Shown here piece after piece: positions 873 to 47,688 of a stretch of DNA of 48,606 bases (positions are counted from its first letter, which is position 1; each line of letters begins with the position of its first letter). A program made the position numbers and the translations under genes. The stretch is from positions 1 through 48,606 of the forward strand of contig WJIJ01000147.1 of the NCBI GenBank assembly GCA_014730345.1, in the 5' to 3' direction. The notes beneath the pieces were generated by a model. The model searched no databases. It was not told where the DNA came from and was given only the letters and a program-made list of their open reading frames with translations. The stretch is from Candidatus Zixiibacteriota bacterium. Lineage in GTDB: Bacteria > Zixibacteria > MSB-5A5 > UM-FILTER-46-8.

Positions 873-1679
873 TTACCCCTTCCTCACCGCCCGTAAAACA
901 TAGTGCACCGCGAACGCGAATGACGCCACCAGTATAATCGTCGCCCCGGATGTGAGGTTAAAACTGTAGGATAAAGCCAGTCCCGCGAGGATGAAAATCA
1001 CGCTCAAAGCCGATGACAGCATAATCATCCGGCTCAACGAAGATGTGCTTCGCTCGGCGATAAACGGCGGTATGGTCAGCAGGGCAATCACCAGTATAAG
1101 CCCCACCAGCCTGATTACCAGCACGATGGTAACGGCGGTAAGCAACAGCATCAGGAAGTACAATCCCTTCACCGGGACATTGATAGTGATGCCGAACTCT
1201 TCATCGTAGGACATAGCCAGTATGTCCCTGTAGAAATACCATAAAAACCCGAAAATAACCACGTTGACCATCAGTAGAAGCCAGATATTGCTCGAAGGTA
1301 TGGCGAGTATACTCCCGAAAAGATAGCTCATCAAATCGACATTGTAACCCGGGGTAAGGTCGATAAGGATCACCCCGAACGCCATACCCGTCGCCCATAT
1401 CAATCCTATCGCCGTATCGACCCGTTCCTTGTTCTTAACCGTTAGCAGGGCCAGCACCAATGTTACAGCCACTGTGAATCCCATTGCTCCCAGCAGGGGC
1501 GATATACCGAGAAAAATCGCGAGACCGATTCCACCGTAAGCGGCATGGGCGATTCCCCCGCCGATGAAGACGATCCTGTTGACCACCACCAGCGCGCCGA
1601 TAATCCCGCATGCGATTCCGGTCAGGACCCCGGCGATAACCGCGTTTCGGAAAAATTCGAACTGGAGCGCTTCAATCAT
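873..1679 (-). CDS. znuB: Zinc ABC transporter permease (ZnuB/ABC-3 family)
   Basis: 268 residues, almost entirely hydrophobic with about eight membrane segments, including the family segments VVVNRIVFIGGGIAHAAYGGIGLA and LVIALLTIPPFIAERSTSSLSRM. This is the ABC-3 permease family that forms the inner-membrane channel for Zn or Mn import. Its ATG overlaps the znuC stop by 4 bases (ATGA), so the two are translationally coupled. It is the last gene of the zur-znuA-znuC-znuB operon. Zinc is preferred over manganese because of the His-rich loop in the binding protein and the Fur-family regulator in the same operon; this is inference from context. Confidence 0.93.
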   Translation of the reverse strand: MIEALQFEFFRNAVIAGVLTGIACGIIGALVVVNRIVFIGGGIAHAAYGGIGLAIFLGISPLLGAMGFTVAVTLVLALLTVKNKERVDTAIGLIWATGMAFGVILIDLTPGYNVDLMSYLFGSILAIPSSNIWLLLMVNVVIFGFLWYFYRDILAMSYDEEFGITINVPVKGLYFLMLLLTAVTIVLVIRLVGLILVIALLTIPPFIAERSTSSLSRMIMLSSALSVIFILAGLALSYSFNLTSGATIILVASFAFAVHYVLRAVRKG

Positions 1680-2458
1680 TCTCCCTCGTCCCCGTGTTTG
1701 GGCAGTACCCGGTGAGGAATTCCATGGGCCAGCAGTTCCACAGGACAGGTACCATCGACCGTTTCGCCGTAAGCAAGTTTGACCATATCGCTGGTAAGCT
1801 CCGGCGCGCTGTGGTAATGGAGCTTCCGGTTCACGCAGGCGATGCTGGTGATATGCCTGGAGATGGCGGTAACATCATGGGTGATAACCACGATGGTCAT
1901 ATCCCTGTTCAATTCCTTGAGAAGGTCATTGAGCTTCTCCTGCCCGGAGCTGTCCACGCTGGATGTCGGTTCGTCGAAGAATAGAATCTCCGGCTCAACC
2001 GCCAGCGCGCGCGCAATCATCACTCTCTGCCGCTGTCCGCCTGAGAGGTCGCCGATGCGCTTATGGCGATTATTCCACATCTCAACCAGTTCAAGTTTCT
2101 GGCGGACGATTTCCTTGTCCTTTTGAGATAATCCGCGGCCGCGGGGAATACGTCCGTGACGGCCCAGCTTGGCGGCATCATAGACCGTTATAGGGAAACT
2201 GCTGTGGCTGGCGGCATCCTGGGGAAGGTAACCGATGCGGCCATAGGCGTCTTCCGGCGACGAACCCAGGATTTTTATCTTCCCGCTGTACGGCTTGTAG
2301 ATGCCCAACAGCAGTTTCACCAGGGTAGTCTTGCCTCCACCGTTGGGCCCGAGTAATGCCATGAATTCGCCCTCTGGAAGCTTAAAGTTGATTTCCTCCA
2401 ACACCGGAATTCCATCGTAACTGAAGGTCATGTTCTCAACTTCGATAGCGTAGCGCAT
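1676..2458 (-). CDS. znuC: Zinc ABC transporter ATP-binding protein (ZnuC)
   Basis: 260 residues of a standard ABC ATPase. The Walker A GPNGGGKT is at about 37-44, the Q-loop Gln near 80, the signature LSGGQ at about 138-142 and Walker B ILFFDEPTSSVD ends near 169, followed by the H-loop region VVITHD. It energises the ZnuB permease at the cytoplasmic face. The gene starts 2 bases after the znuA stop region and overlaps znuB by 4 bases. The C-terminal tail after the nucleotide-binding domain (about residues 200-260) is rich in His and Asp/Glu, which is common in ZnuC-like proteins. Nothing suggests damage. Confidence 0.94.
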   Translation of the reverse strand: MRYAIEVENMTFSYDGIPVLEEINFKLPEGEFMALLGPNGGGKTTLVKLLLGIYKPYSGKIKILGSSPEDAYGRIGYLPQDAASHSSFPITVYDAAKLGRHGRIPRGRGLSQKDKEIVRQKLELVEMWNNRHKRIGDLSGGQRQRVMIARALAVEPEILFFDEPTSSVDSSGQEKLNDLLKELNRDMTIVVITHDVTAISRHITSIACVNRKLHYHSAPELTSDMVKLAYGETVDGTCPVELLAHGIPHRVLPKHGDEGE

Positions 2459-2460
2459 AT

Positions 2461-3330
2461 CTATTCAGCCAACTCCTCTTTCAAAGTATTCGCCGCTTCA
2501 AGGAGGTTCTCCTTCCAATTCTCCGCCAGCGGATCGAGTTCTACCAGTTTCGCGCCTATCTCATCGGCGATCACCCGCGCGCTACGCATTGAAAACTGCG
2601 GTTGCACAAAGACAACACCGATATTTTTCGCGCGGGCGGTTTTAATTATCTCTTTAAGCTGTGCCGGTTTCGGTTCCTTGCCCTCGATCTCTATCGGCAC
2701 CTGCGTAAGCCCGTAATCGCGGGCGAAGTATCCCCATGTCGGATGGAAAACCATGAAGCTTCGGTTATCGACGCCCTTGAGTATTTCCTTAATATCAGCA
2801 TCTAACCGGTCGATTTCCCGGATGAATTTTTCATAATTGGTGCGATATGTTTGCTCGTTTGCACCATCAATTCGTATTAACGCGTCCCTGATAATTGCAA
2901 CCTGTTTCTTAACAAGCCTGGGAGAAAGCCATACATGAGGATCGAGCGCGCCTTTCGAGCCATGATGGTGATGATCCTCCATGGGATTTTTTTCAATTCC
3001 CTCATCGGTTCTAACCACGGACATCGACCCGTTGACATGGGCAAATTTGCCCAACCATGTTTTCTCGAATGGCACCCCGATAGCGAAATATACCTTTGAA
3101 CGGGAAAGCCGGGCCATCTGCGAAGGTTTTGGTTCATAAACCGCCGGACTCGCCCCGGGGGGAACCATCGCCTGCACATCGACAAGACCTCCCGCGATTT
3201 TTTCAACGAAATTCTTCTGGGGCAGGATACTCACGGTTACCTGCGTTTTACCATCGGCATATACGTTGCCAATAAGTATCCAAATTAGCAACACTGCGAG
3301 AATCAGCGCTTTTTTAGGCATTGACTGCAT
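2461..3330 (-). CDS. znuA: Zinc ABC transporter substrate-binding protein (ZnuA-like)
   Basis: 289 residues. A hydrophobic signal segment (about 8-24, ending near VYA) directs periplasmic export. The fold is the cluster A-I metal-binding protein: an acidic/His loop EDHHHHG at 118-124, DPHVWLSP with His132, FHPTWGYF with His196, and ELDPLAENW near the C-terminus with the usual Asp ligand. The first usual metal-ligand His (PHxYE in most ZnuA) is replaced: the sequence reads SPAVYEPKPS, with Ala63. The start is uncertain. ATG 3330 lies only 2 bases after AGGGGG, while ATG 3321 (MPKKALI) has an 11-base spacer. The gene overlaps the end of zur by 19-28 bases. Confidence 0.92.
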   Translation of the reverse strand: MQSMPKKALILAVLLIWILIGNVYADGKTQVTVSILPQKNFVEKIAGGLVDVQAMVPPGASPAVYEPKPSQMARLSRSKVYFAIGVPFEKTWLGKFAHVNGSMSVVRTDEGIEKNPMEDHHHHGSKGALDPHVWLSPRLVKKQVAIIRDALIRIDGANEQTYRTNYEKFIREIDRLDADIKEILKGVDNRSFMVFHPTWGYFARDYGLTQVPIEIEGKEPKPAQLKEIIKTARAKNIGVVFVQPQFSMRSARVIADEIGAKLVELDPLAENWKENLLEAANTLKEELAE

Positions 3331-3743
3331 ATCCCCCTGAATTCAATTATGGTCTCTGTTATATCGCCCACGGACTTCGCGCTCTCGTACATCTTGGTAT
3401 TTTCTAATCTTGTGGGCGAAAGACAATATAATTTGTGGCATTGGGTACATTCGAAATGGGGATGCGCCGGGTTATGTTCGCAAGCCATCTCATAATACTG
3501 GACATTGCCCTGAATTCCGGCTTCCCTGATTATTTCCCTGTCCAGCAAAATCTTGATTATACGATATACGGTAGCGAGGTCTATATTGGACTGTCTTGAT
3601 ACCTTACGGTGAAGCTGTTGCGCGCTCAAGGGCATGTCGCTTTTTATGAATCTATCCAGGACAATTCTTCGCCCTGGGGTTCTGCGCAAACCATTGGATT
3701 TCAACAATTCAACAGAATTACACTTATCCATAATACTCAACAT
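3303..3743 (-). CDS. zur: Fur-family transcriptional regulator, probable Zur
   Basis: About 146 residues. The N-terminal winged helix (LLKSNGLRRTPGRRIVLDRF ... LATVYRIIKILLDREII) is typical of the Fur family. The C-terminal half carries the two Cys pairs of the structural zinc site, CTQC and CSQC, and a His-containing sensing segment (EHNPAHPHFEC). Its position as first gene of the znu operon makes Zur much more likely than Fur or PerR. A longer frame opens with TTG at 3767, but that codon sits inside the palindrome at 3752-3766, so I take ATG 3743; ATG 3731 (MDKC) is also possible. No clear SD is seen before either. Its gene end overlaps znuA. Confidence 0.88.
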   Translation of the reverse strand: MLSIMDKCNSVELLKSNGLRRTPGRRIVLDRFIKSDMPLSAQQLHRKVSRQSNIDLATVYRIIKILLDREIIREAGIQGNVQYYEMACEHNPAHPHFECTQCHKLYCLSPTRLENTKMYESAKSVGDITETIIEFRGICSQCLKKR

Positions 3744-3751
3744 ACTATCTA

Positions 3752-3766
3752 TGCAAATGGTTTGCA
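3752..3766. promoter_or_regulatory. Putative Zur box before the zur-znu operon
   Basis: TGCAAATGGTTTGCA is a 15-base inverted repeat with 6-base perfect arms (TGCAAA/TTTGCA) around TGG. The 7-1-7 layout is that of Fur/Zur boxes. It lies 8 bases upstream of the proposed zur start, where bound repressor would block the operon, so zinc-dependent autoregulation is the natural reading. It is a single site and has not been tested against a motif model. Confidence 0.55.
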
Positions 3767-3854
3767 AGTATTATTTCATCTTAGAGCCCCGTAATATATT
3801 TATCACCAACCCGAATACGGTTTCTCGACCGGCTGTCCGGTTCCGTTCAGGAAG

Positions 3855-33702: not shown

Positions 33703-35115
33703 TTATTGCAATCGAAACTCTGCCGGATACTCGGTACTCTTCAGCCATACCGCTAATTCATCCTTGATGTCCGGGGCGTATTTCAATACCAGCGCTTCGA
33801 AAATGTCGTAATCGAGGTCATCGCGCGCGAACAGCTCCTTCGAGAATTGCATAAACCGTTCCTCACCCGTTTTACGCATTAAGTAATCGAAAAACAGCAC
33901 AACCCGGTCATTTAAAACGAATGTATCCTTGTAACTCGCGATGTTATCAACACTCAGCGAAAGTATCGGCGCTTCGGGCGGAAGCGGTCTTCCCCTGCGG
34001 CCGATTCCTTTCTCCCGTTTTGCCAGGTATGATTTCTCGATTTGGAGCATCCGCTTTTCATACCAGCCATCCCCGACATATTTTCCCAGCGCCGGAAGAT
34101 GAAAATAGCTTGGAAATCCCTCGATGGCAAACGCGTAAAAAGGATTCGACGGCGGAAGATTTATCTGGACATAAGGATGAACCAGTTCATGGGCTATCAG
34201 GATCTTGGGCCAGGTGGCTTTGTCGAAATTGTACCATGCTTCCGAAGATATCCCGGTAACATTAGCGCTGGAAATATCTCCGTATTTGGGCATCTCCATT
34301 ATATAGAGCGTGTTTTTGTCCGCTGGTTCGCCGTAGTTTTCAGCATAATCATTGTTGATATTTTTTGCAAGGGTGAGTATGTCCCGGGCATGAGCGCGGG
34401 AGCTGTCATTTCTCAAATGGTAAACATAAATGCCCTCGCCGGATAGTACCTCGTATTTCCGCGCCGTGCATTGGGCATTGGAGTAATCGAGACCCATCGC
34501 CTGCCATACGCTGACTCTTTCATCTCCCTTTACCTCCTCGCTTATCATTTCTCCCGAAAACAGCGCCCTGAATTCCTTCGGCGTCGTGATAGACACTCTC
34601 GTAAAATCTACCGGGTAAGATTCGACAGTTCCATGCTGAAAAACCGGGAACCATATCGAATAAGGGAAGCTCCGCAGAAGAACGCCGTCATCGGGATCGA
34701 TACGCATATAATCGGATGGACTACGCGCTCTCGACGGATTGAAATAGCCGGAGTAATACACCGTCAACTCCAACTCACCCGCATTATTAGCCGGGTGCGA
34801 AAATGCCGTCCGGTTTACTACCAGCGAGTAGTTATAATAGGTGTATTCCTTGGATGAAGCGAATTCGGTTTTAACTCCATTTACAAACAACGAGTCGATA
34901 TTTAATTCTCCATGAAGGAAAAATATGATACTGTCGGACTGGTCAGTATGGGCGTTGACCACCGCCGCCGCTTTCATTACCGATTTTTCAGGATAAAAGA
35001 CAGCGTCGATTTCATAACTTCCGGCTATGGGGAAACCTGTGCTCTTTTCGGGCCGGGGTGCGGAACAAGCTGATGTTATAAGCAATACTGATACCGCAAG
35101 AACTCCAAATCTCAA
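33703..35115 (-). CDS. M1-like (gluzincin) metallopeptidase lipoprotein
   Basis: 470 residues. A lipoprotein signal ends ITSACSAP. The zinc motif is exact for M1 peptidases: HELVH, then 18 residues, then Glu in IEGFPSYF. Upstream, YIMEMPKYG stands where the GxMEN motif sits in aminopeptidases but is not that motif, so N-terminal specificity is doubtful. The N-terminal 170 residues are beta-rich, as in the M1 N-domain (VNGVKTEFASSKEYTYYNYSLV...LELTVYYSGYF). It is probably anchored to a membrane and faces outwards. Substrate unknown. No operon partner. Confidence 0.75.
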   Translation of the reverse strand: MRFGVLAVSVLLITSACSAPRPEKSTGFPIAGSYEIDAVFYPEKSVMKAAAVVNAHTDQSDSIIFFLHGELNIDSLFVNGVKTEFASSKEYTYYNYSLVVNRTAFSHPANNAGELELTVYYSGYFNPSRARSPSDYMRIDPDDGVLLRSFPYSIWFPVFQHGTVESYPVDFTRVSITTPKEFRALFSGEMISEEVKGDERVSVWQAMGLDYSNAQCTARKYEVLSGEGIYVYHLRNDSSRAHARDILTLAKNINNDYAENYGEPADKNTLYIMEMPKYGDISSANVTGISSEAWYNFDKATWPKILIAHELVHPYVQINLPPSNPFYAFAIEGFPSYFHLPALGKYVGDGWYEKRMLQIEKSYLAKREKGIGRRGRPLPPEAPILSLSVDNIASYKDTFVLNDRVVLFFDYLMRKTGEERFMQFSKELFARDDLDYDIFEALVLKYAPDIKDELAVWLKSTEYPAEFRLQ

Positions 35116-35219
35116 ATCATACTCCTTCGCGTTTGATTGGTTGAATTTGGTAATTCATACGGCATCGAATGCAAGGATGTTTCATCGGGATACTTAAGTC
35201 AATTCACTGCAAATATAAA

Positions 35220-35245
35220 AAGCCGCAACCATCCGATTGCGGCTT
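35220..35245 (-). terminator. Rho-independent terminator of the GAK-like operon
   Basis: Arms AAGCCGCAA and TTGCGGCTT form a 9-base perfect stem with an 8-base loop, followed on the minus strand by T residues. It is 26 bases past the stop of the last operon gene (35271). Confidence 0.88.
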
Positions 35246-35270
35246 CATGAGCTTTAATCTCTTAAAACCT

Positions 35271-35570
35271 CTACTCTGCCGGTTTCGCAGGGGCTTCAGT
35301 TTCCTCGGTAGAGATGTTCAATGCTTCCTGTTCCGGCTCCTCGGGTATCACCCTCTTCCAGCTCAGTTCGAATGAGAATTTCTCTTTCCCCTTCTTGACT
35401 TTCGCTTCCACTTCGACCTCGACATTTTCGGGGGTCGTCAAACTGATGCTCTTGTCGCCTTCCTCTATCATGATTTGTCCCGAACGGAAACCTTTCACCA
35501 GCTCCTCAAGGTATCCCGTTGCTTCATCCAGAGCCATAGCCTTCTCTATAGAGACCTTCTGTTTGTCCAT
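35271..35570 (-). CDS. Amphi-Trp domain protein 1 (GAK operon)
   Basis: 99 residues from ATG 35570, with GGAGG 5 bases upstream; the open frame can begin 4 codons earlier at GTG. The layout is a helix (IEKAMALDEATGYLEELVKGFRSGQIMIEEG) then strands (KSISLTTPENVEVEVEAKVKKGKEKFSFELSWKRV) and an acidic, Ala/Pro-rich tail. The strand pattern with Trp at the end (ELSWKR) is the amphi-Trp family as I recall it. Function is unknown. It is the last gene of the operon. Confidence 0.7.
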   Translation of the reverse strand: MDKQKVSIEKAMALDEATGYLEELVKGFRSGQIMIEEGDKSISLTTPENVEVEVEAKVKKGKEKFSFELSWKRVIPEEPEQEALNISTEETEAPAKPAE

Positions 35571-35631
35571 GATTTCCTCCACACATTATAGTATTTATGA
35601 AACAAAACTCCAGTTGATATAATAATACAAA

Positions 35632-36822
35632 TTAACTTAATGTCAATAGGATGGGAACAAGTATTTTTTCATCGAGATAGGGACTGCTCTCCGAGGAAAC
35701 CAACGGGCAATCGATAAGTTTTACGCCCCTGCTTTCGATAGATTGAGTATCAATCTCTCCAGGATAATCTCCTCCGGCCCTATCCACTAAAACAAAATTC
35801 AGCAGTTTCTCCACCCGAGTCCCCGCCGGACAATCCTTTTTCAGGTACTCTATTAAAACCTTAACCTGTTCGGCGGTAGACAGTCCATAACATTCCGGGT
35901 CTGTTCCGGTATTGGGGATGTAAATCTTCGGGCAATTGTTGGCGGCGACAGCCCTGCCTACGCCCGCTGGAAGCAGATTAGCGATAACGCTGGTATAAAA
36001 ACTTCCCATGGGATAGCATATCAACTCCGCCTCCCCAATCAACTCCAGCACCTTGTTCCTTATCTCCGTTTCGTTTAAATCGGGTGTGCTTCCGCCTTCG
36101 GTCAGATATAAATGCTTAATCCTTGATTTTATCGGGGGGTATTCCTTGCCTGTGATTTTATGCTGTCCGGTTATCTTATCCCCGTTCTCAAGTTCGGCGG
36201 AAAGATGCAAATCGCGGTTGACCACGGGACGCACTATCCCGCGTACCTTCACCAGTCGCGAGAATATGAATATTACCGGGTCGAAATGGCGCTGGTGCTC
36301 AAAATACCCCGCGGACAGGATAATATTGCCGATACTCGCGCCTCTCAAATCGAAATCATCGGGCATCTTTTGCCGGAACATCAGCAGGTAATGATGGATG
36401 ATCTTCCGCATGGGGTCCGGTATCTCCCGTACCAGTGGGTGGCGGCGTTCTATCATCTCATCGAGTTCAACCGAAAGTTCTTTTCCAGTTTTTTCCTTAT
36501 CGAAACGGTAGGCAAACAATTCGAAAATTTCCGGGTTTCCCAGTAACGTTTTATCGGCGAGGGCCATAAGGCGGTTGCGGACATCGCCGATAGCGGGCAT
36601 GTTAAACGCTTTCCTCAGCGCCGCCGAACTACCTCCGGAATCAAAGGGCGTTATGACATGGATCGAATTATGGGTGTAGCCTATCAGCTCCGCGCTGAGA
36701 TTCCGCAGGGCGTTGCCGCCGCTGAAAAAGAGGATTTTCGGCCCCAGTTCGGGGCATCTGCGGAAACGTTCAACCTTGATATCATTCGGCAGGTGAATTT
36801 CGCGTGTTAGTTTTATGCGCAT
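35632..36822 (-). CDS. CofD/YvcK-like protein (GAK operon)
   Basis: 396 residues. CofD/YvcK landmarks in order are FFSGGNALRNLS (sugar/nucleotide loop), TPFDSGGSSAALR, IGDVRNRLMALAD, GASIGNIILSAGYFEHQ and LICYPMGSFYTSVIANLLPAGVG. CofD itself joins a phospholactyl or phosphoenolpyruvyl group to a deazaflavin; YvcK relatives bind UDP-sugars. This protein is longer than CofD and lies in a kinase/ligase operon, so a transfer of a phosphate-containing group is a fair guess and not shown. It starts 15 bases after the HprK-related gene. There are no deazaflavin biosynthesis genes nearby, which argues against a true F420 CofD. Confidence 0.85.
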   Translation of the reverse strand: MRIKLTREIHLPNDIKVERFRRCPELGPKILFFSGGNALRNLSAELIGYTHNSIHVITPFDSGGSSAALRKAFNMPAIGDVRNRLMALADKTLLGNPEIFELFAYRFDKEKTGKELSVELDEMIERRHPLVREIPDPMRKIIHHYLLMFRQKMPDDFDLRGASIGNIILSAGYFEHQRHFDPVIFIFSRLVKVRGIVRPVVNRDLHLSAELENGDKITGQHKITGKEYPPIKSRIKHLYLTEGGSTPDLNETEIRNKVLELIGEAELICYPMGSFYTSVIANLLPAGVGRAVAANNCPKIYIPNTGTDPECYGLSTAEQVKVLIEYLKKDCPAGTRVEKLLNFVLVDRAGGDYPGEIDTQSIESRGVKLIDCPLVSSESSPYLDEKILVPILLTLS

Positions 36823-36837
36823 GGGTTTCCAGCGGTC

Positions 36838-37935
36838 CTATTTCAATGCCGGAACTTTTTTGGAGGAAAGGTAATCGAGGCAGATATCGGTGGCTCTTTC
36901 GAAATCCAGTCCCCCTTCTATTTCGAAAACATCACAACGTGATAAAAATTCCTTGTAATTTTGAAGCGAAAGGTCGGCTTCCGGTTTCCCCTTTTCGGGA
37001 AAGTAAAAAAGCCCCGGTGATTTTATGAAAGCCGACAACGAGGCAGAACGCTTTTCAACATCGAGCCTTTTCAATTTTGGAGAACCGTTGCCCCTTTTCC
37101 AGTTGAGTATCAACAATCCATCCATTGGTGCATTAAGCTTGAACCTGTCTTCACCGAAACACTTATCGATAAATACATCGTATTTATGCTCCAAATCCCA
37201 CAGGTCCTCCTTGCTGTAATGCTCGAAGAGAATCATATCCTTTTCGGGAACTATATCTTTCAAAAAAGGATTGTTCAGCGCCGTACCGGGGTTTATACGG
37301 GGGAGCTTGGCGACGCCGTGCATAGTCAATTTCTCGCCTGTTTTCTCCACCAGCAGGCGGTCATTGCTGACAAACGATGCTCCCATGGAAACTACATGCA
37401 ACGCGAGAGTCGATTTCCCCATTCCGGAATTACCGGCAATCGCCAATCCGCGCCCATTGAAAGTTACGGCGGCGGCATGGCCCAGTATGCACCCCCTGCG
37501 CAACTGCCAGTCGATATAACGATTGTTTATGAAATTGATAACCTGGTTCGGATTGCGGGTGCATGGTCCAATGGCCAGATTCTGGGAACCGCCGAACACG
37601 AATATCATTCCGGTGATTCTCTTTCGGACTATACGCCCATCGGGGAAATCCTCGTATTCTTCCTTAAAAACTTTCTTACCGGAATCCGGTTCTTTTAAAA
37701 TATATTCGTAATCCAATCTCGGTTCAGGGGCCTGGTGCGCGGTGATAATAATATCGCTGTCGGCAGGGTCGCTGTTGAATTGCCCGAAATAATCCTGGAG
37801 TTCCTCGAGAAGGGGTTCGCTGTTTGTTTGCAGTTCGATCCGGACATCTTCAAATTTCAAATACATACGGTATTGGCAGGGATACTTTTCCCTGAGCTGG
37901 CGGATCAGTTCCTTACGGGTACTCGGGAGTTTCAT
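36838..37935 (-). CDS. HprK-related kinase B (GAK operon)
   Basis: 365 residues. The C-terminal P-loop domain has GNSGMGKST at 168-176 and SNDRLLVEK at about 190-197, the place of the HprK acidic motif. The N-terminal 145 residues (YLKFEDVRIELQTNSEPLLEELQDYFGQF ... LRRGCILGHAAAVTFNGRGL) fit the HprK-related proteins of the GAK family. HprK phosphorylates HPr at Ser; no HPr gene is in the window, so the substrate may be another operon protein. Its start overlaps the ATP-grasp stop by 4 bases (ATGA). Confidence 0.85.
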   Translation of the reverse strand: MKLPSTRKELIRQLREKYPCQYRMYLKFEDVRIELQTNSEPLLEELQDYFGQFNSDPADSDIIITAHQAPEPRLDYEYILKEPDSGKKVFKEEYEDFPDGRIVRKRITGMIFVFGGSQNLAIGPCTRNPNQVINFINNRYIDWQLRRGCILGHAAAVTFNGRGLAIAGNSGMGKSTLALHVVSMGASFVSNDRLLVEKTGEKLTMHGVAKLPRINPGTALNNPFLKDIVPEKDMILFEHYSKEDLWDLEHKYDVFIDKCFGEDRFKLNAPMDGLLILNWKRGNGSPKLKRLDVEKRSASLSAFIKSPGLFYFPEKGKPEADLSLQNYKEFLSRCDVFEIEGGLDFERATDICLDYLSSKKVPALK

Positions 37936-38807
37936 GGTTCAAGCCTTTTCAAAACATATTCAACATACAACCGGGCGGCATCCATACCGCTGGATTCCTG
38001 AATTCCTCTAAAACCGCCGAATGCGGACACCTCGAAAACCACGGGACCGTTGTCTGTTTCTACCACATCCACGCTGGTAAAATCAAGCTTAAATAAATCA
38101 TTCGCCTTTTGGGCTATATCTATCGTGCTCTGTTTTGGTTCATAAGTCTCGTATTTCCCGCCATAATAAGTGCTGGTTGTCCAGGAGTTGCTCTCCTTTT
38201 TACGCGCGTATGTTGTGAGGTATTCGCCGCCCAAAAATACTACTCCAAGGTCCCGCCCGTTTAGATCGATTTTCTGCTGGATATACATAAGAGGATTATC
38301 GAGTTTGAAATTGATGATATTCCGCCGGGCTTCGTTGCCGCGTTCTATAACTTTCATTCCCCTCGCCTTGGAGGTGTAAAGCGGTTTGAAAACCGCCTCC
38401 CCGTACCTCTCCACCGCGTCGAGGGCTTCATCGATATCCTCTGTTATGGTTGTTGGAGGCATCGGTATATCCGCAAGGCGCAACGATACCGTACAACTCA
38501 AACGGTCCAGGACCCGCATTATAGAGTTTGGAGAGGAAAAAACTGGTAATCCCCTTTCGTGAAGATATCTTAAAATTTCGAGGCGGTCGAGATGTTTGGG
38601 AGAATAACGCCCGCCGATTTTCTTGATCATCAGGGCGTCCAGGGTTGTTAAATCGGTGTCCCGGTACCAAGCCTTGCCTGTTTTCAAATCCAGGCTGACC
38701 TTATCCATCTCAATTAACAGCCCGTGACCGGTCATCTCCAGAACCGTTTCGGCGAGTTTCTCCGATGACCAACCATTTTTTTTGCCGACCACTGCTATTT
38801 TCTTCAT
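37932..38807 (-). CDS. ATP-grasp ligase (GAK operon)
   Basis: 291 residues, RimK-like. The N-domain (LEILRYLHERGLPVFSSPNSIMRVLDRLSCTVSLRLADIPMPPTTITED) is followed by the ATP-grasp core EAVFKPLYTSKARGMKVIER, MYIQQKIDLNGRDLGVVFLGGEYL and the metal segment FTSVDVVETDNGPVVFEVSAFGGFRGIQ. In most RimK-like enzymes the last motif reads E-x-N; here it is E-V-S, so one usual metal ligand is Ser. It probably makes an amide or ester using ATP. Start ATG 38807; the downstream HprK-related gene overlaps by 4 bases. Confidence 0.85.
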   Translation of the reverse strand: MKKIAVVGKKNGWSSEKLAETVLEMTGHGLLIEMDKVSLDLKTGKAWYRDTDLTTLDALMIKKIGGRYSPKHLDRLEILRYLHERGLPVFSSPNSIMRVLDRLSCTVSLRLADIPMPPTTITEDIDEALDAVERYGEAVFKPLYTSKARGMKVIERGNEARRNIINFKLDNPLMYIQQKIDLNGRDLGVVFLGGEYLTTYARKKESNSWTTSTYYGGKYETYEPKQSTIDIAQKANDLFKLDFTSVDVVETDNGPVVFEVSAFGGFRGIQESSGMDAARLYVEYVLKRLEP

Positions 38808-38822
38808 AACCCGTTGCTGTTT

Positions 38823-40463
38823 TTAATAATATAAAACCGATTGCGGTAAATGGAACTTTTCCCAGGCAATATTACCCTGTTTATGGGCGAATAATTTCTC
38901 GAGTAGGTAATACGCCCTCAAACACATCTCCTTGGCAAACTCAAAATTCAACTCGAACCGGGTTGACGTATAAAACGACCTCGCCAGCGCGAGAGTTAAC
39001 CGCGCCTCAAAAGTATCATCGTTCCAATCCTCTGCCATACCCCGGGCGAATGAGTAAAACTTTTCAATAATCCAATTCAACCTCGCTCTTAGCTCCTCGG
39101 CGAACACCGGTATGCGGAAGTTGGAAACAAGGAAGACCGAGATATCCTGAACATAATCGTAACTGCGCGAACGGTAAAGGTCTATAAAGTATATCCTGTT
39201 AATGTCATAGTCGAAAATAATGTTATTAGCGTTGAAATCGCCGTGTATCAATACGCTGAAAGGAGCTTTAATTTCTCTTTCAATCTGCGTTCCAATTTCG
39301 AAAAGCTCATTGGACGAGCGTATCTTGGTCTGCCCGATATCGAGTTCGAACCTGTTCAATTCCGGATGAAGCTGGTTGATATGCTCCAAACGGGTCAGAA
39401 TCTGCTTTATATAATCGGTGCTGATCGCTTCATCTTTTCTGGTCTCGGTCCATACCCGGCGGACGGTTTCGCGCAGGCTTATAAACCCGCTCCTTAATAA
39501 CTCTTCATCGGCGTTGATCACCGACTCATCGAAAGTATGCCCCGGTAAAAATTCGACAAGGATGGACGCCGAACCGCTGTCCTCGTTGTAGCTGTAAACC
39601 CGAGGTGTCAAACCGGGAAATAACTCGCCCCACTTCTCCAGGTTATCCTTTTCCGCTTTTATCTTCTGCAGGTTCCCCTCTTTAAAAATGCTCTCCCTGG
39701 TTTCGGCGGTAGATGACGGCCTTTGTTCGAGCCGGCTGATATGGCAACCGGATTTGGTGCCCCAGATACCCTGGAAATCTATGTCGGATATATCCCCATC
39801 GAAACCGGACTTGGACAGCACCCGCTGAAGCGACTGGAACTGGTGGATTTTTATCTTTTCGCCCACTATAGCAAATATCAGGGCTTCGCCGATATTCAAA
39901 AGGGAATCCCCGATTCTCTCCAGGTAGCGGAAAATAAATAGCGTGGTTATAAGATTCTGGGTATTCTGCCCGGTCTTCAGCTGGCTCATTATCCTGTCGA
40001 AGATTACTTTGTATTTCTCGTCCAGTTCATGCTCAGCCTTGCATATTGTCAATGCCCCGGTCATGTCGCTGTTTTCCAGGACCCTGTTTATGCGCGAAAG
40101 GGCATCCCTTATCAGATCGAATTGGTCTTTATAGGAATAGCTGTTAATAAAATCGAAATCCTCGAGATAACCAAACTGGCGGATTATGTTCACGCAGTTG
40201 TCGGCTATACGCTCAAGGTTTACCCCGGCGATATGTATGGCCCGTATTTCGTTGATTTCTTTATCGGGGATGTTGATAGTAGCGTTTATGCGCGCGAAGC
40301 ATTTGTTCTCGATAATAGTCTTCAGATTATCGATATAATCATCCCGGTTGTATATCTTTTCATAGTTAGAACCGTCGGGGTTGACCAGTAAATCGAGAGT
40401 CGCGTTGACCTGTTTCTGGGTTTCGGCTATTAAGAATTTAAAGTTTTCCTTTATCCCTTCCAT
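38823..40463 (-). CDS. PhoU-domain/APH-kinase fusion (GAK operon)
   Basis: 546 residues. The N-terminal 210 residues are all-helical and match the PhoU pattern (EIRAIHIAGVNLERIADNCVNIIRQFGY ... LITTLFIFRYLERIGDSLLNIGEAL), with two ERIAD/ERIGD boxes as in PhoU metal-binding triple-helix bundles. The C-terminal 300 residues are an aminoglycoside-phosphotransferase-type kinase: a Gly-rich start GTKSGCHISRL, a Lys/Glu region, HGDFNANNI near 405 (catalytic loop HGDxxxxN) and IDLYRS near 423 (metal Asp). A PhoU sensor fused to a small-molecule kinase is rare. It starts 9 bases after the amphi-Trp gene ahead of it. Confidence 0.82.
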   Translation of the reverse strand: MEGIKENFKFLIAETQKQVNATLDLLVNPDGSNYEKIYNRDDYIDNLKTIIENKCFARINATINIPDKEINEIRAIHIAGVNLERIADNCVNIIRQFGYLEDFDFINSYSYKDQFDLIRDALSRINRVLENSDMTGALTICKAEHELDEKYKVIFDRIMSQLKTGQNTQNLITTLFIFRYLERIGDSLLNIGEALIFAIVGEKIKIHQFQSLQRVLSKSGFDGDISDIDFQGIWGTKSGCHISRLEQRPSSTAETRESIFKEGNLQKIKAEKDNLEKWGELFPGLTPRVYSYNEDSGSASILVEFLPGHTFDESVINADEELLRSGFISLRETVRRVWTETRKDEAISTDYIKQILTRLEHINQLHPELNRFELDIGQTKIRSSNELFEIGTQIEREIKAPFSVLIHGDFNANNIIFDYDINRIYFIDLYRSRSYDYVQDISVFLVSNFRIPVFAEELRARLNWIIEKFYSFARGMAEDWNDDTFEARLTLALARSFYTSTRFELNFEFAKEMCLRAYYLLEKLFAHKQGNIAWEKFHLPQSVLYY

Positions 40464-40472
40464 GGATGCGGT

Positions 40473-40748
40473 TTATTTCGATTTAATCTCCAGGTTGTCT
40501 TCAACTTCAATATTAACTTTTTTCGCTTCCTTCCAGCTGATCTTAAGGCTGAGCTTGCTGGCCTCGCCCTTCACTTTGGCCTTTACCGAAAATTTGAGCA
40601 TATCGGAAGGATTCAGGACAATCTCCTCCCCGTTGGAACTGAGCGCTATGTTCCCTTTCTCGATTCCCTCCATCAATGATTGGAGAAAATCTTTAATTGT
40701 TTTAGGGTCCTGTACCGATTCATAAAAGAAATCCTGGGACTGCGACAT
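40473..40748 (-). CDS. Amphi-Trp domain protein 2 (GAK operon)
   Basis: 91 residues. A helix (DPKTIKDFLQSLMEGIEKGNIALSSNGE) is followed by alternating strands (EIVLNPSDMLKFSVKAKVKGEASKLSLKISWKEAKK), with Trp at the same place as in amphi-Trp protein 1 (ISWKE vs LSWKR). The two proteins are paralogues. Family function is unknown. It sits 9 bases before the kinase fusion gene. Confidence 0.7.
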   Translation of the reverse strand: MSQSQDFFYESVQDPKTIKDFLQSLMEGIEKGNIALSSNGEEIVLNPSDMLKFSVKAKVKGEASKLSLKISWKEAKKVNIEVEDNLEIKSK

Positions 40749-40793
40749 ACCTTTCCTTTTTAATACTAACTGTCCTATTTACTTAAATTATTA

Positions 40794-41954
40794 TCAGGTC
40801 AACCTCTCCCGGTATTCATTTATAACGTCATCTTTTTGCATTTTGGCAAGTATTAATTTTTTTCTTATGTGCAGATCTTTCCATGCCGGTTGAACTCCAA
40901 TTTCCCGGCTGGCCTTGGCTTCATCCTGGTGTATGGGATCCTTCACCTTTTCGCCCATGTGGGTATCATCGCCCATGAATATCAACAGCTTGCGCCGCGA
41001 TAAACCTATACGTTTATTATGCTTGTCGATTACCGAGATCAGGAATTCGGTATATTTCCGCGACTGCGGATTCCATACTTCGAACCCATCTATATCATAC
41101 TCCGCCAACAAGATAGGCCAGAACTGCTCCGGATGCGGGACTACCACTCCGGCCCCTATAGACCGGGCTTCCTCGATAATTTCCTCGGTGCGGTAAAAGT
41201 ACGGCAGCGGGAATTCCGCCTTTACCAACGTCTTAACCGCCTTTAAAAATGCCTGCGCCCGGTTTATCAGGCCATGACCGTATTTCTCTCGAAGGGTATC
41301 GAAAAAATTCCTGAGGAGTTTGTTTTTTATCATCTCCGGCGGAACTTTGTTCTCATGTGTTTCCAGCAATTTCTTTATCTTACCCACATAAACAGTCACC
41401 AGGTGCACCAGCATCGTGTCCGCGCCGGTCTCCCTGGCCGCGATCTTCATCCGTCCTTCAACTGGTTTCAATATGGTATCCATAAAATCATACAGTTGGG
41501 ATGAACGGTATGTAAATGTGTAATCGAGCATCGATTTTAATGTCTCCGCCCGTTCCAGCCGGTTTTGATTGAAATGCAGTAGAAGCTGAACTTTCTGATT
41601 AAACTGCCTTGAATAGCAATCCACTTCTGCCCCGTAAAAGTTATCGTACTGCATCAAAACATTATGCTGGGTCGGTATAATAAGCGAATTTTCCTGCTCA
41701 GGGAAAGTAGTATCAATGCGTTTGCGGATGGTATCCATGGGCACAAATTCAGGATGCCAGTGGATTGCGAGCACCGAATGTTCTTTAGGGTAGGTTTCCG
41801 GCGGAATGGATACTCTCTGTAATTGCTCATCGCTGAGTTTGGTAGAAATTATTTTGAAAAAACTCCGCTCGTCCTCCTCGGTAATCTCCTCCGGAATATC
41901 ATCCGGATAAACCGGAAGAACCTCTTTACTATTTACAGATTTTATAACCGCCAT
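40794..41954 (-). CDS. PHP-superfamily-like phosphoesterase (GAK operon)
   Basis: 386 residues. Metal motifs in order are IHWHPEF (His65, His67), the segment QHNVLMQYDNFYGAEVDCYS, PHPEQFWPILLAEYDIDGFEVWNP (His274, Glu292) and GDDTHMG (Asp330, His332). This order and spacing fit the PHP phosphoesterase superfamily. No close characterised relative is recognised. It may remove phosphate from a product of the operon kinases; that is inference. A long helical insert lies between 130 and 250. It starts 26 bases after the first operon gene. Confidence 0.6.
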   Translation of the reverse strand: MAVIKSVNSKEVLPVYPDDIPEEITEEDERSFFKIISTKLSDEQLQRVSIPPETYPKEHSVLAIHWHPEFVPMDTIRKRIDTTFPEQENSLIIPTQHNVLMQYDNFYGAEVDCYSRQFNQKVQLLLHFNQNRLERAETLKSMLDYTFTYRSSQLYDFMDTILKPVEGRMKIAARETGADTMLVHLVTVYVGKIKKLLETHENKVPPEMIKNKLLRNFFDTLREKYGHGLINRAQAFLKAVKTLVKAEFPLPYFYRTEEIIEEARSIGAGVVVPHPEQFWPILLAEYDIDGFEVWNPQSRKYTEFLISVIDKHNKRIGLSRRKLLIFMGDDTHMGEKVKDPIHQDEAKASREIGVQPAWKDLHIRKKLILAKMQKDDVINEYRERLT

Positions 41955-41980
41955 TTAGCTCATTCCTTTTAGAAATACCG

Positions 41981-42532
41981 TTATTTGTACTTATTATGGC
42001 TTATACTTTTGACTTTGTCAACCTTTTCAATTGCCGCTCTCATCTCCGATACCAAACCCTGGTCATAACTTCGCTGGAATTCCCTGACCGATTCAGCGTA
42101 TTGGTCATAGAACTCATCGCCGTAACCCGGATAGGTTATCATAAGCAGAGAATCGGAAATAAATGACTCAACGACATCCTTTGGCGGAATGGACCCATCC
42201 TGGATAGTATTGAAAATCAGCTTATAGTCCTTTTTCATGCGTTTCTTCAAAGATTTGTACCTGGGCTTCGCCTCTGAAACTACCGAAGACTCGCTGGCAA
42301 GCGTATCTCCATCGGCGATGACCGTCAACGGTTTAAGCTTCATTTTAAAACGGGTTTGCCCGTTTTTGCGTTTAAACTCAAGTTTTAGTTTTTCGAAATC
42401 CAGTGCTTCGACCGGGACAAATCTCTCTTCAAAGGCTTCGCCGTTTTCGAACTCCTCGGCTAATTTTCTCAAAATATCGGATATAGTATCTCCGGATATA
42501 GTCTTTTCGATCTTAATGTCCGTATCACCCAT
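41981..42532 (-). CDS. XXXCH-like protein (first gene of GAK operon)
   Basis: 183 residues in two parts. The N-terminal 75 (ISGDTISDILRKLAEEFENGEAFEERF...LDFEKLKLEFKRKNGQTRFKMKLKPL) resemble an amphi-Trp domain without the Trp. The C-terminal 95 (RYKSLKKRMKKDYKLIFNTIQDGSIPP...LMITYPGYGDEFYDQYAESVREFQRSYDQG...DKVKSISHNKYK) match the GAK-system XXXCH family as I remember it, but the terminal Cys-His reads Ser-His. Function unknown. A TATAAT promoter stands 65 bases upstream. Confidence 0.6.
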   Translation of the reverse strand: MGDTDIKIEKTISGDTISDILRKLAEEFENGEAFEERFVPVEALDFEKLKLEFKRKNGQTRFKMKLKPLTVIADGDTLASESSVVSEAKPRYKSLKKRMKKDYKLIFNTIQDGSIPPKDVVESFISDSLLMITYPGYGDEFYDQYAESVREFQRSYDQGLVSEMRAAIEKVDKVKSISHNKYK

Positions 42533-42596
42533 AATTGATCCTAAAATAATTTTAAATTACTGAACCAGCCAACAGGGAAATGGTGTAAAACTTTAT

Positions 42597-42624
42597 ATTA
42601 TAGTGAATTTTCGGGAAAAGTAAA
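42597..42624 (-). promoter_or_regulatory. Promoter of the GAK-like operon
   Basis: On the minus strand: TTTACT (42619-42624), 16 bases, TATAAT (42597-42602). It is about 65 bases before the first operon start (42532). With the terminator at 35220-35245 it delimits an eight-gene unit. Confidence 0.7.
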
Positions 42625-42846
42625 GCCCTAAATATTTCCATTCCCGCCGTTGGTCCGCGTACTTACTGATGTATCATTAGAACAATCATATTCAAGCATA
42701 GTTCCTCTTCGTTACCATATAGGTATATCGGCATATTGCCACGAATAAGCACATACCATAAATTATTGCATAACTGTAGAATAGGAAAAATACCAAAGCG
42801 GGAACCAAAGAGATGAAAATGTTATTCATTATTTATAGAATGACCA

Positions 42847-42875
42847 TTGACAAATCAAAATCAAATTCATATATT
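42847..42875 (+). promoter_or_regulatory. Promoter of the subtilase gene
   Basis: TTGACA (42847-42852), 17 bases, TATATT (42870-42875): almost a perfect sigma-70 promoter. It gives a leader of about 150 bases before ATG 43034. Confidence 0.7.
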
Positions 42876-43033
42876 AGAGATGATTAATATCACAGAAATA
42901 ATCCTTAAACTATCCATGGATCGGATTAGAAAGGAGGAGTTATCTCGGAAACTACCCACAAAAGTTCCCCTGAAGTTTTTTCTTCGAACAATTAGTACGG
43001 TCACCTGAAACAATTTAATCCTCGGAGGTTGTA

Positions 43034-45073
43034 ATGAAAACCAAACTGTTCCTTGTTGCTCTTTCAATCCTTTTAATCGCTTCTGTATCATACGCTAACT
43101 ACCTGGAAGAGGGCACGGATTACGTACCTAACCGAATTGTTGTAAATTTCCATCCATTGTTTAATGATATTTCCATAGATAAGTCAAGTGGTATTGTAAA
43201 TACAGGAATCGAAAAACTTGACGCGTTAAACCAGAAGTATGTTGCTTATGACATGTACAGGCTTTTTCCGGGGGATAACTCCGAAGAAATGAAATACTTC
43301 TATGTAATCAAATTCGATATCGAGCCGGAACTGGAAACAACGCTTAATGACTATTCCGGCCTGGATATAGTCGAGCATGTCGAACCTGTCGGTCTCCATC
43401 CGATCTATGATACCCCTAACGACCCGTCCTATGGCACCCAGTGGCATCTGCCGAAAGTGGAAGCCCCATCAGCCTGGGACATTGAAAAGGGAGATCCTGA
43501 TATAGTGATCGGTATTCCCGACACCGGAGTTGACTATGATCATCCGGACCTCGCCGACCACATGTGGATCAATGATGCCGAGGATATTAATAATAATGGT
43601 ATCTTTGACAGCGGAGACATCAATAATATTGACGACGATGGCAATGGATATATAGACGATGTTATCGGCTACGACTGGGTGGACAACGCCAGCTGGTGCA
43701 CCGATAACGACTGCGATAATCCTGACAATGACCCGATGGACTATCATGGTCACGGCACCCATTGCTCCGGCATAGCGGCCGCTGTTACAGATAATGGCAC
43801 AGGGGTTGCGGGTTTGGATTGGAATGGTACGGTAATGTGCCTGCGCATAGGTTATGCCAGCTGGTTCGGCGGAACCGTCCAGATGGACGCGGCCGCTTCG
43901 GCTATTAACTACGCCAGGAACAAAGGGGTAAAGGTTATCTCCTGCAGTTGGGGCAACTCCAACAGCGGCGGTCTCGGAACGGCGGTTACCAACTTTATTA
44001 ATTCCGGCGGCGTATTACTCGTGGCCGCTGGCAACAATAATGACCAGAACGCCAGCTATCTCGCCGGCAGAAGCGACTGCGTGGCGGTTGCCGCTACTGA
44101 CCGCACCGACCACAAGGCTTCCTTCTCGAGCTATGGAACCTGGGTCGATGTTTGCGCTCCCGGTGTAGACATCTACAGCACCGTGTTTAACAACAGCTAT
44201 ACTTACATGGATGGAACTTCGATGTCCACTCCGCTTGCCGCCGGTCTCGTGGGACTTATCTTCTCCCAGAATCCCGGCTTCTCTTCGTTGCAGGCGAGAC
44301 AACAGTTATATGACAGTTGTGATGATATCGATGGTATCAATCCCAGTTATGCCGGCAAACTCGGCCACGGCAGGATCAACGCTTATGAAGCGCTTGTAGG
44401 CGGAGGATATCCCGATGTCGATATCCTTATGACCGCTCACAATCCTATCTGCCAGCAGGGCGGTTATTTCACCTTTACCGGTGAGATTACCAACAACGAG
44501 GCTAACAGCAATGTGGTAGATGTATGGACGATGGTCAGGCTTCCGGGCGGCGGGTTATTTGGACCGGCCCTCGAATTCTATAACCTGAACCTTTCTGCAT
44601 ATCAGCACATACAAGTTGATACTGTCCGCCAGGATGTACCGTATTACGCTCCGACCGGCCAGTATACATACGTGTCTTACTGCGGAGATTACCCGAACGA
44701 CAAGTATGATTCTTCATACTTCGCCTTTGTAGTTACAACCGCGGTTGACGGCGGCGGAGCCGATAGCTGGGCAGTGTACGGATGGGGCGATCAGACTCCG
44801 GGGATTCCCGCTGAATACTCCCTTTCTGACAACTATCCCAACCCGTTCAACAGCTCAACCGCTATTAACTTCAGCCTTCCCAATGAATCTTATGTGAAGC
44901 TGGATGTTTACAATCTGCAGGGGCAGAAAATCGAAACCCTTGTGGATGGCCAGCTTAATGGCGGTAATCATACCATTAACTGGGACGCGGGCAAATACTC
45001 AACTGGTGTTTACTTCTATAAATTGGATGCCGGTGATTTCTCGCAGACCAAGAGGATGACCCTGCTGAAGTAA
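43034..45073 (+). CDS. Exported subtilisin-like serine peptidase with C-terminal sorting domain
   Basis: 679 residues. A signal peptide (about 1-21) is followed by a propeptide-like region with VPNRIVVNFHPLF and a beta-strand pattern as in fervidolysin-type prodomains. The S8 triad is complete: Asp163 (GIPDTGVDYDHPDL), His240 (YHGHGTHCSGIAA) and Ser near 395 (GTSMSTPLAAG). A Ca-binding-like insert (DINNNGIFDSGDINNIDDDGNGYIDD) lies between Asp and His. The C-terminal 80 residues (LSDNYPNPFNSSTAINFSLP...YVKLDVYNLQGQKIETLVDGQ...STGVYFYKLDAGDFSQTKRMTLLK) are a sorting domain for secretion to the surface. SD GGAGG precedes ATG 43034. Confidence 0.93.
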   Translation: MKTKLFLVALSILLIASVSYANYLEEGTDYVPNRIVVNFHPLFNDISIDKSSGIVNTGIEKLDALNQKYVAYDMYRLFPGDNSEEMKYFYVIKFDIEPELETTLNDYSGLDIVEHVEPVGLHPIYDTPNDPSYGTQWHLPKVEAPSAWDIEKGDPDIVIGIPDTGVDYDHPDLADHMWINDAEDINNNGIFDSGDINNIDDDGNGYIDDVIGYDWVDNASWCTDNDCDNPDNDPMDYHGHGTHCSGIAAAVTDNGTGVAGLDWNGTVMCLRIGYASWFGGTVQMDAAASAINYARNKGVKVISCSWGNSNSGGLGTAVTNFINSGGVLLVAAGNNNDQNASYLAGRSDCVAVAATDRTDHKASFSSYGTWVDVCAPGVDIYSTVFNNSYTYMDGTSMSTPLAAGLVGLIFSQNPGFSSLQARQQLYDSCDDIDGINPSYAGKLGHGRINAYEALVGGGYPDVDILMTAHNPICQQGGYFTFTGEITNNEANSNVVDVWTMVRLPGGGLFGPALEFYNLNLSAYQHIQVDTVRQDVPYYAPTGQYTYVSYCGDYPNDKYDSSYFAFVVTTAVDGGGADSWAVYGWGDQTPGIPAEYSLSDNYPNPFNSSTAINFSLPNESYVKLDVYNLQGQKIETLVDGQLNGGNHTINWDAGKYSTGVYFYKLDAGDFSQTKRMTLLK

Positions 45074-46548: not shown

Positions 46549-47688
46549 TTAGCGAGTTGATATGAATATAAATGGAATAATAAAGAACATCACGATAACA
46601 ATCACTATGGGGATAAACCGGTTTTTCTCTGAAATTTCGGCGACTTTCAAAGCGATGTTGATGGGGATCTTTTTGAGGGGTAGAAATACGGCCATACCAC
46701 TGCAGTTGAAGAAGAAATGGGCAAAAGCAACGGTCAGACCAGCTTCCTTACCAGCTACCAGCGCGGCGAATATAGCGGTCAATGTTGTTCCTACATTGGC
46801 GCCCAAAGCGTAAGGATACATCTGCGTAATAGTGAGAACTCCCGCGCCCAGCAATGGCACCACCAATGACAGGGTTATTGATGAAGACTGCATTATCGCC
46901 GTCAGCACAAAACCAAGCAGTAAGGCTTTGATGGTATTGCTGAACAGATAGGTTCCGAAGAAAGCTTTAATTTTATTGAGAACGAGGTAGCGCATATTAT
47001 CTACAATAAATTTTAGGGATATAAACAGCAGTATCAATGCTATGAAAATGCCAATCCATTCGTAGCCTTCGATTTGATGCAGTATTATCTTTACTAAAGG
47101 CTTGACCGCGTAATCCAGCGGAGACCCGAAATACTCAAAACCATGCGCTTTGCTAAACATTGATGAGAAATAGACGGCAAACCGCCCGAGGAAATTAGTA
47201 TAATACTGCAATGGCAAAAATATAATCACCGCCAGCAAGTTGAATATATCATCCACTATCGCGCCCGCATAAGCCAGCCCGAACTCCTGCCGCCGGTTGA
47301 TATGAGCGAAGGAAACAACGGTGTTGGTGACGGTTGTGCCGATATTAGCACCCATCACCATAGGGATAGCCCACTCGATTTTCAATGCCCCTCCGGCAAC
47401 CAGCGCAACTATGGTTGAAGTTGTAGAGGAAGATGATTGAACAATTGATGTCGCCAGTATCCCTATGAATAACCCAACGACTGGATTCGATGTCGCTTCG
47501 AAAAGCGATTTGGCATAATCACTACCGAGTCCCTTGAATGACGAGCCAAGAAGTTTGACCGCCACAATAAAAAGATATATAAAAACGATTAAGTATATAA
47601 CGCGGAGAACTACATCAAGAGTGGACTTGTTATATGACTTCGCCCCGTTCCCATTAGTTTTTGGTCCAGAGTTTTCCGACGAACTCAA
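46549..47688 (-). CDS. Na/Pi cotransporter family protein (NptA-like)
   Basis: 379 residues. The two inverted repeats of the Na/Pi-cotransporter family each carry the QSSS motif: LATSIVQSSSSTTSTIVALVAGGAL...MVMGANIGTTVTN and LTAIMQSSSITLSLVVPLLGAGVL...YALGANVGTTLT. There are about nine membrane helices. It imports phosphate with sodium, or in some bacteria exports it. The start is TTG 47688, 7 bases after AGGAG; no ATG fits better. The usual C-terminal PhoU domain of many relatives is absent, but a separate PhoU-domain gene is divergent at 47948. Confidence 0.9.
   Translation of the reverse strand: MSSSENSGPKTNGNGAKSYNKSTLDVVLRVIYLIVFIYLFIVAVKLLGSSFKGLGSDYAKSLFEATSNPVVGLFIGILATSIVQSSSSTTSTIVALVAGGALKIEWAIPMVMGANIGTTVTNTVVSFAHINRRQEFGLAYAGAIVDDIFNLLAVIIFLPLQYYTNFLGRFAVYFSSMFSKAHGFEYFGSPLDYAVKPLVKIILHQIEGYEWIGIFIALILLFISLKFIVDNMRYLVLNKIKAFFGTYLFSNTIKALLLGFVLTAIMQSSSITLSLVVPLLGAGVLTITQMYPYALGANVGTTLTAIFAALVAGKEAGLTVAFAHFFFNCSGMAVFLPLKKIPINIALKVAEISEKNRFIPIVIVIVMFFIIPFIFISTR

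Follow-up and report, generated by a model that had tools for sequence, protein, structure and literature searches.

A complete GAK operon in a Candidatus Zixiibacteriota genome contains an additional core protein with a predicted PHP fold and is possibly linked to phosphate homeostasis

Introduction

NCBI annotation uses the GAK family names in several phyla, but the families are, to our knowledge, without a known function; none of the papers searched made relevant mention of the GAK system, amphi-Trp or XXXCH. Among the better described relatives of its components, HPr kinase acts on a protein and RimK acts on ribosomal protein S6. The operon described here lies on contig WJIJ01000147.1 of a Candidatus Zixiibacteriota bacterium (assembly GCA_014730345.1), within a stretch of 48,606 nucleotides that was analysed as a whole and is referred to as the window. 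The window holds a complete copy of the eight-gene GAK system. The window agrees with Desulfovibrio-type loci in all five NCBIfam families, each of which scores above its cut-off, and in the order of the genes; it differs in that its XXXCH protein lacks the Cys of the CH motif, and one further protein, PHPx, belongs to the system yet is covered by no NCBIfam model.

Results

The operon is a run of eight minus-strand open reading frames (35271–42532). Scores against NCBIfam and Pfam were compared with the curated cut-offs (written below as score/cut-off in bits), and seven of the eight proteins pass one. From XXXCH to amphi-Trp 1, the operon encodes an XXXCH-domain protein (41981–42532, 183 aa; TIGR04358, 86.7/40), PHPx (40794–41954, 386 aa), amphi-Trp protein 2 (40473–40748, 91 aa; TIGR04354, 73.7/31; PF20068, 36.4 bits), a PhoU-APH kinase fusion (38823–40463, 546 aa), an ATP-grasp enzyme (37932–38807, 291 aa; TIGR04356, 444/300), HprK-related kinase B or HprK-B (36838–37935, 365 aa; TIGR04355, 491/200), a CofD/YvcK-like protein (35632–36822, 396 aa; TIGR04357, 546/340) and amphi-Trp protein 1 (35271–35570, 99 aa, with an ATG at 35570 preceded by GGAGG; TIGR04354, 71.3/31; PF20068, 38.6 bits). 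The initial annotation, made from the letters, had recognized eight consecutive genes of the GAK type, and both points are borne out: the gaps between the genes are 26, 45, 9, 15, −4, 15 and 61 bases, and a search of the proteins with TIGR04354–TIGR04358 and PF20068 places the kinase, ATP-grasp and CofD-like families above cut-off. A chance arrangement is excluded because the same eight-gene order recurs in L004, L005, L076, L081, L089 and other loci.

The second protein, PHPx, is a core member of the system that is described here for the first time. It has no Pfam or NCBIfam match up to an E-value of 0.1, PHP profiles included, and a sequence search against solved structures returned no match. 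Its assignment to the core rests on co-occurrence across genomes, a mapping that the initial annotation had proposed: PHPx was found in 29 of 33 genomes with GAK (GAK+) and in 0 of 28 without it (GAK−), including three in which the operon is split (G352, G416 and G530). In these, XXXCH, PHPx, amphi-Trp 2, PhoU-APH and HprK lie at one site, and ATP-grasp, HprK, a set of peroxiredoxin-like, Pta and AckA genes and CofD at a second. Of the four genomes in which PHPx was missed, three (G181, G332 and G434) have a contig that is short or truncated where the locus lies, and one (G217) has only a partial ATP-grasp match. In two loci the PHPx match carries in-frame stops, one TGA and one TAG in L087 (G185) and one TGA in L097 (G269); frameshifts, assembly errors or decay are possible causes.

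PHPx is probably a PHP-type metal phosphoesterase, as predicted from its modelled structure, and the fold search alone could place it. The AlphaFold2 model (predicted local distance difference test score, 89.8) matches the PHP phosphoesterase 3o0f/3e0f (BAD_1165) in Foldseek with an E-value of 8e-6 and a probability of 1.00; a match to the PHP domain of RNase AM is less certain. Residues His65, His67, His97, Glu110, His127, His274, Asp329, Asp330 and His332 are invariant in an alignment of 27 sequences, and all but Asp329 make up the HxH, H, E, H and DxH metal-ligand residues that PHPx shares with these enzymes. The label “PHP-like”, first given to this protein by the initial annotation, is thus supported by predicted fold and by invariant His, Asp and Glu residues. 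PHPx differs from BAD_1165 and RNase AM in its low identity (16–17%), in the lack of a PHP Pfam match and in an extra helical region (residues ∼137–246); owing to this insertion, superposition is moderate, with a template modelling score of about 0.4–0.5.

The other enzymes are recognizable to differing degrees. The fourth protein joins PhoU (PF01895, 83 bits) to an APH kinase domain (PF01636, 44 bits) that carries the conserved motif HGDFNANN. Outside its own family the ATP-grasp enzyme is best matched by MptN (156 bits), and its nearest solved structures are of the RimK, LysX and ArgX type. It resembles the RimK, MptN and LysX ligases in sequence and in a T-x-x-x-GG motif but scores far below the curated cut-offs of those families, and its partner proteins lack a conserved C-terminal Glu acceptor. 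HprK-B has the P-loop region and a His/Asp core; the alignment with HPr kinase covers the P-loop region only, and a complete Hpr_kinase_C domain was not found, PF07475 spanning positions 10–60 of 171 with 32.0 bits against a cut-off of 33.3. The CofD-like protein matches PF01933 (149 bits) and the YvcK family TIGR01826 (130 bits), and has solved YvcK-type homologues.

The amphi-Trp genes of the window's own genome occur in this operon only. The amphi-Trp alignment has a single invariant Trp and variable C termini, and the profile found nothing usable among solved structures, with a weak match to a designed protein only. A role as a C-terminal glutamate carrier, as for LysW or RimK-like systems, was considered and rejected because the Glu is not conserved. 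Amphi-Trp 1 proteins of L004, L083 and L092 bear long Lys/Ala/Pro-rich tails like those of histone H1 or AlgP; acidic tails are seen on others, the window's included.

Genes were mapped in 64 loci, the window among them, and they reveal two interchangeable phosphatase architectures, which are new here. Type I (32 of 64 loci, for the most part in Desulfobacterota and the phylum of the window) follows the gene order seen in the window, except that XXXCH may stand at either end or be missing. Type II (20 loci, from Pseudomonadota and Planctomycetota) combines PhoU-APH, ATP-grasp, HprK-B and amphi-Trp with a histidine phosphatase and a calcineurin-type phosphoesterase in place of PHPx, and often adds Nudix and SixA-Nudix proteins; its CofD gene is often unlinked or absent, and none was found in G138. 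All 52 loci of the two types have the PhoU-APH fusion and most loci of both have amphi-Trp; PHPx and the histidine phosphatase/metallophosphoesterase occur together in none of the 52. In the planctomycete loci L103 and L104, the order is histidine phosphatase, phosphoesterase, amphi-Trp 1, amphi-Trp 2, PhoU-APH, ATP-grasp, HprK and CofD, otherwise as in type I. The phosphatase pair at the 5′ end of these loci, never found together with PHPx, therefore marks the position of PHPx as a phosphatase slot. In three related genomes (L094, L095 and L096) the operon is split, and HprK-B and CofD are separated by genes for a peroxiredoxin-like protein, phosphate acetyltransferase (Pta) and acetate kinase (AckA). 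G436 carries two diverged GAK operons (L098 and L100).

The distribution of GAK is broad and patchy, and its presence in the window's genome is no isolated case. Genomes with GAK were counted in sets whose centre genome had been chosen for having the system: there were 25 among 395 Desulfobacterota, 14 among 399 in the phylum of G136 (Pseudomonadota), 5 among 343 Planctomycetota and 8 among 133 in the window's own phylum. Rhodobacterales plasmids carry the system too. The initial association of these families mainly with Deltaproteobacteria is only partly right, as the range is wider. A possible lateral transfer of the window operon from Desulfobacterota was considered: in the ATP-grasp tree the operon falls among them (85% support in the Shimodaira–Hasegawa-like approximate likelihood ratio test), but the strongly supported branches are compatible with a single origin for the window's own phylum. 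Type IX secretion system (T9SS) sorting domains near both window ends fit a genome of the Fibrobacterota–Chlorobiota–Bacteroidota type.

Phosphate-related genes adjoin GAK in several loci: PstSCA in L084, PhoU-PstBACS in L102, PhoU with a PhoR-like kinase in L097, and CHAD with PstSCAB in L012 (Stieleria), where a PPK2 gene is encoded on the same strand at a distance of 10 kb. L113 also has CHAD next to GAK, and L011 has CYTH. Four Pst-adjacent loci were seen where ∼0.4–1 would be expected by chance, assuming pst clusters in 1–2 copies per ∼4 Mb genome; the resulting P of about 0.001–0.02 is rough and post hoc. In the window, an Na/Pi symporter gene (46549–47688) shares the strand of the operon and lies 4 kb upstream of it, with a Mrp/ApbC gene and a T9SS-tailed subtilase between them. 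The phosphate island of Stieleria tagensis (L012 and G138:C135:96046-96717) extends over ∼25 kb and comprises CHAD, a short GAK set, SixA-Nudix, a histidine phosphatase, a phosphoesterase, amphi-Trp, PstSCAB and PPK2.

Genomes with type I GAK lack the ordinary polyphosphate machinery. Searches of type I GAK+ genomes found PPK1 in 0 of 33, PPK2 in 0 of 27 and CHAD in 0 of 33, and neither PPK1 nor PPK2 was found in the window's genome (G000). GAK− relatives mostly lack PPK1, PPK2 and CHAD too, so that the lack of these genes is not peculiar to GAK+ genomes; in the sampled Desulfobacterota PPK1 is nearly absent and PPK2 was not found. By comparison, 6 of 9 second-architecture genomes have PPK2.

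The XXXCH protein was studied by alignment, AlphaFold2 modelling and Foldseek. Its N-terminal half matches amphi-Trp weakly (21.6 bits, short of the cut-off of 31) and shows beta-alpha-beta-beta elements in the model; the operon therefore probably encodes three amphi-Trp-like domains. The C-terminal half matches cytochrome c' in a profile search (E-value 2e-4), and Foldseek likewise returns a cytochrome c'-like four-helix bundle (probability 1.00, with an E-value of only 0.013). The two proteins are alike in the four-helix fold and in the position of a CH-xx-Y motif but differ in that the first Cys of CXXCH is missing in all XXXCH proteins, so that no CXXCH haem attachment motif was found in the alignment, and in that no signal peptide was seen by eye. 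The family name would fit a CXXCH that lacks its first Cys. Of the 17 aligned proteins, 16 keep the Cys of the CH motif; the window copy reads SH and, judged from its codon (window 41990–42000; Ser, AGC, compared with Cys, TGT, in the same-family relative L076), has lost the second Cys as well. The CH motif is dispensable for passing TIGR04358, as the window copy does.

A single terminator and a single shared promoter had been claimed for the operon. The first claim stands: an intrinsic terminator with a 12-pair stem and a T tract (35219–35246, minus strand) is the best terminator-like site of the region, and the closest relative, L076, also has a terminator-like hairpin and T run after amphi-Trp 1. 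The second is not supported, because better-scoring promoter-like sites lie within the operon. The minus-strand site upstream of XXXCH (TTTACT-16-TATAAT, 42597–42624) matches 10 of 12 consensus positions and is weaker than two internal minus-strand sites that match 11 of 12, one before PHPx (TTGACA-17-CATAAT, 41993–42021) and one before amphi-Trp 1 (TTGACA-16-TATTAT, 35619–35646); a similar TTGACT...TATATT stands at the latter place in L076. The scan as a whole gave 20 promoter-like sites against 14.4 ± 4.2 expected, which is near chance level. An Rfam search of 34000–43500 found no RNA element. Downstream of the operon, 33703–35115 encodes a lipoprotein-like protein of 470 aa that has a HELVH motif, lacks an NCBIfam match and may be a peptidase; at the opposite end of the window (873–3767) lie, as read by eye, zinc-type ATP-binding cassette (ABC) uptake genes and a Fur-family regulator.

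Discussion

By sequence or predicted structure, the GAK operon brings together a PhoU-APH kinase, an HprK-like kinase, a RimK-type ATP-grasp ligase, a CofD/YvcK fold, a PHP-type phosphoesterase and three small proteins that carry amphi-Trp or a domain like it. Because the set consists of enzymes that transfer or remove phosphoryl groups, in the company of PhoU, and because phosphate genes are among the neighbours, we tentatively propose a phosphate-homeostasis module that makes, erases or senses a phosphorylated compound other than PPK-made polyphosphate, a proposal that may quite possibly be right. The PhoU half would make the kinase respond to phosphate or metal status; the kinases, the ATP-grasp ligase and the CofD-like enzyme would build or attach the compound, which PHPx, or in type II the histidine phosphatase, calcineurin phosphoesterase and Nudix enzymes, would remove; and the amphi-Trp and XXXCH proteins may be acceptors, carriers or a scaffold. 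The product likely has an amino-acid or protein component, since the kinship of the ATP-grasp enzyme to MptN, RimK and LysX favours ligation. The phosphorylated-compound chemistry suggested by the initial annotation, which was right about GAK membership, gains support from the predicted fold of PHPx, from the exchange of phosphatases between the architectures and from the Pst, CHAD, CYTH and Nudix genes nearby.

Several observations weigh against phosphate homeostasis. No Pst gene is adjacent in most type I loci, the window included, and the CHAD, CYTH and PPK2 links are limited to loci that lack PHPx. With PPK1, PPK2 and CHAD absent from type I genomes, nothing names the product. The ATP-grasp enzyme is a member of a clan of amide ligases, for which a phosphate reserve has no obvious need. 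Lastly, the ATP-grasp tree reduces the phosphatase swap to about one event, so that locus counts overstate independence and significance values are too optimistic.

The alternative that survives best, which we nonetheless regard as unlikely, is a protein-modification relay in which the small amphi-Trp and XXXCH proteins receive phosphate from the HprK-like kinase and amino acids from the RimK-like ligase and act as modified signalling or scaffold proteins, and the PHP or other phosphatases reverse the modification. HprK and RimK relatives do have protein substrates, and the small amphi-Trp proteins belong to the set, both in the window's genome and in most loci. Against this, the amphi-Trp proteins offer neither a conserved C-terminal Glu nor an invariant Ser as acceptor, and the HPr-binding part of HprK is not recognizable. 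A second alternative, decidedly improbable in our view, is a phosphorylated cofactor-like conjugate made by a CofD-type transferase and an MptN/CofF-type ligase with roles as in F420 or methanopterin synthesis. The MptN match and the clear CofD fold are what one would look for, but the CofD-like protein is nearer YvcK, the linkage of CofD is loose in the second architecture, and no scaffold-making enzyme recurs among the neighbours, where the only recurring partners are phosphatases/Nudix, generic ABC ATPases and signalling kinases. An accessory system of ordinary, PPK-made polyphosphate, with kinases and phosphatases acting on the polymer and amphi-Trp as granule proteins, would suit the CHAD, CYTH, Nudix, Pst and PPK2 neighbours of second-architecture loci and the resemblance of some amphi-Trp 1 tails to histone H1-like AlgP, which spaces polyphosphate granules (PMC9239181), but is very improbable overall and, after the searches for PPK1, PPK2 and CHAD, is largely refuted and was rejected for the window's architecture.

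If phosphate homeostasis is the right context, the nature of the compound may be sought in the phosphorus granules of Desulfovibrio-type bacteria. In 1996 Hensgens et al. reportedly identified the granules of D. gigas as alpha-glucose 1,2,3,4,6-pentakis(diphosphate), and we know of no described route for its biosynthesis. D. alaskensis forms phosphorus-rich electron-dense granules when replete with inorganic phosphate and loses them under phosphate limitation (PMC5193443). These granules, the D. gigas compound and the absence of PPK make GAK a candidate for granule synthesis; that it is the biosynthesis and turnover system of such granules is a hypothesis to which we give little chance. The tool set of eukaryotic inositol-pyrophosphate metabolism, in which PPIP5K unites a kinase and a histidine phosphatase and Nudix hydrolases take part, is analogous to the second GAK architecture (PMC11836120, PMC11323792): the latter has an ATP-grasp enzyme, a histidine phosphatase and a Nudix enzyme, in L012 near phosphate-uptake genes. 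The GAK ATP-grasp enzyme, by contrast with the PPIP5K system, is closer to amide ligases.

The proposed link to phosphate homeostasis, the eighth core protein and the two phosphatase architectures make GAK function directly testable. Should GAK make a phosphate reserve without PPK, the phosphorus granules of bacteria devoid of polyphosphate kinase would be accounted for, and a new way of storing phosphorus would be added for anoxic sediments. If the granule hypothesis were true, GAK would be a bacterial counterpart of pyrophosphorylated-polyol metabolism, with the window's phylum included in its range.

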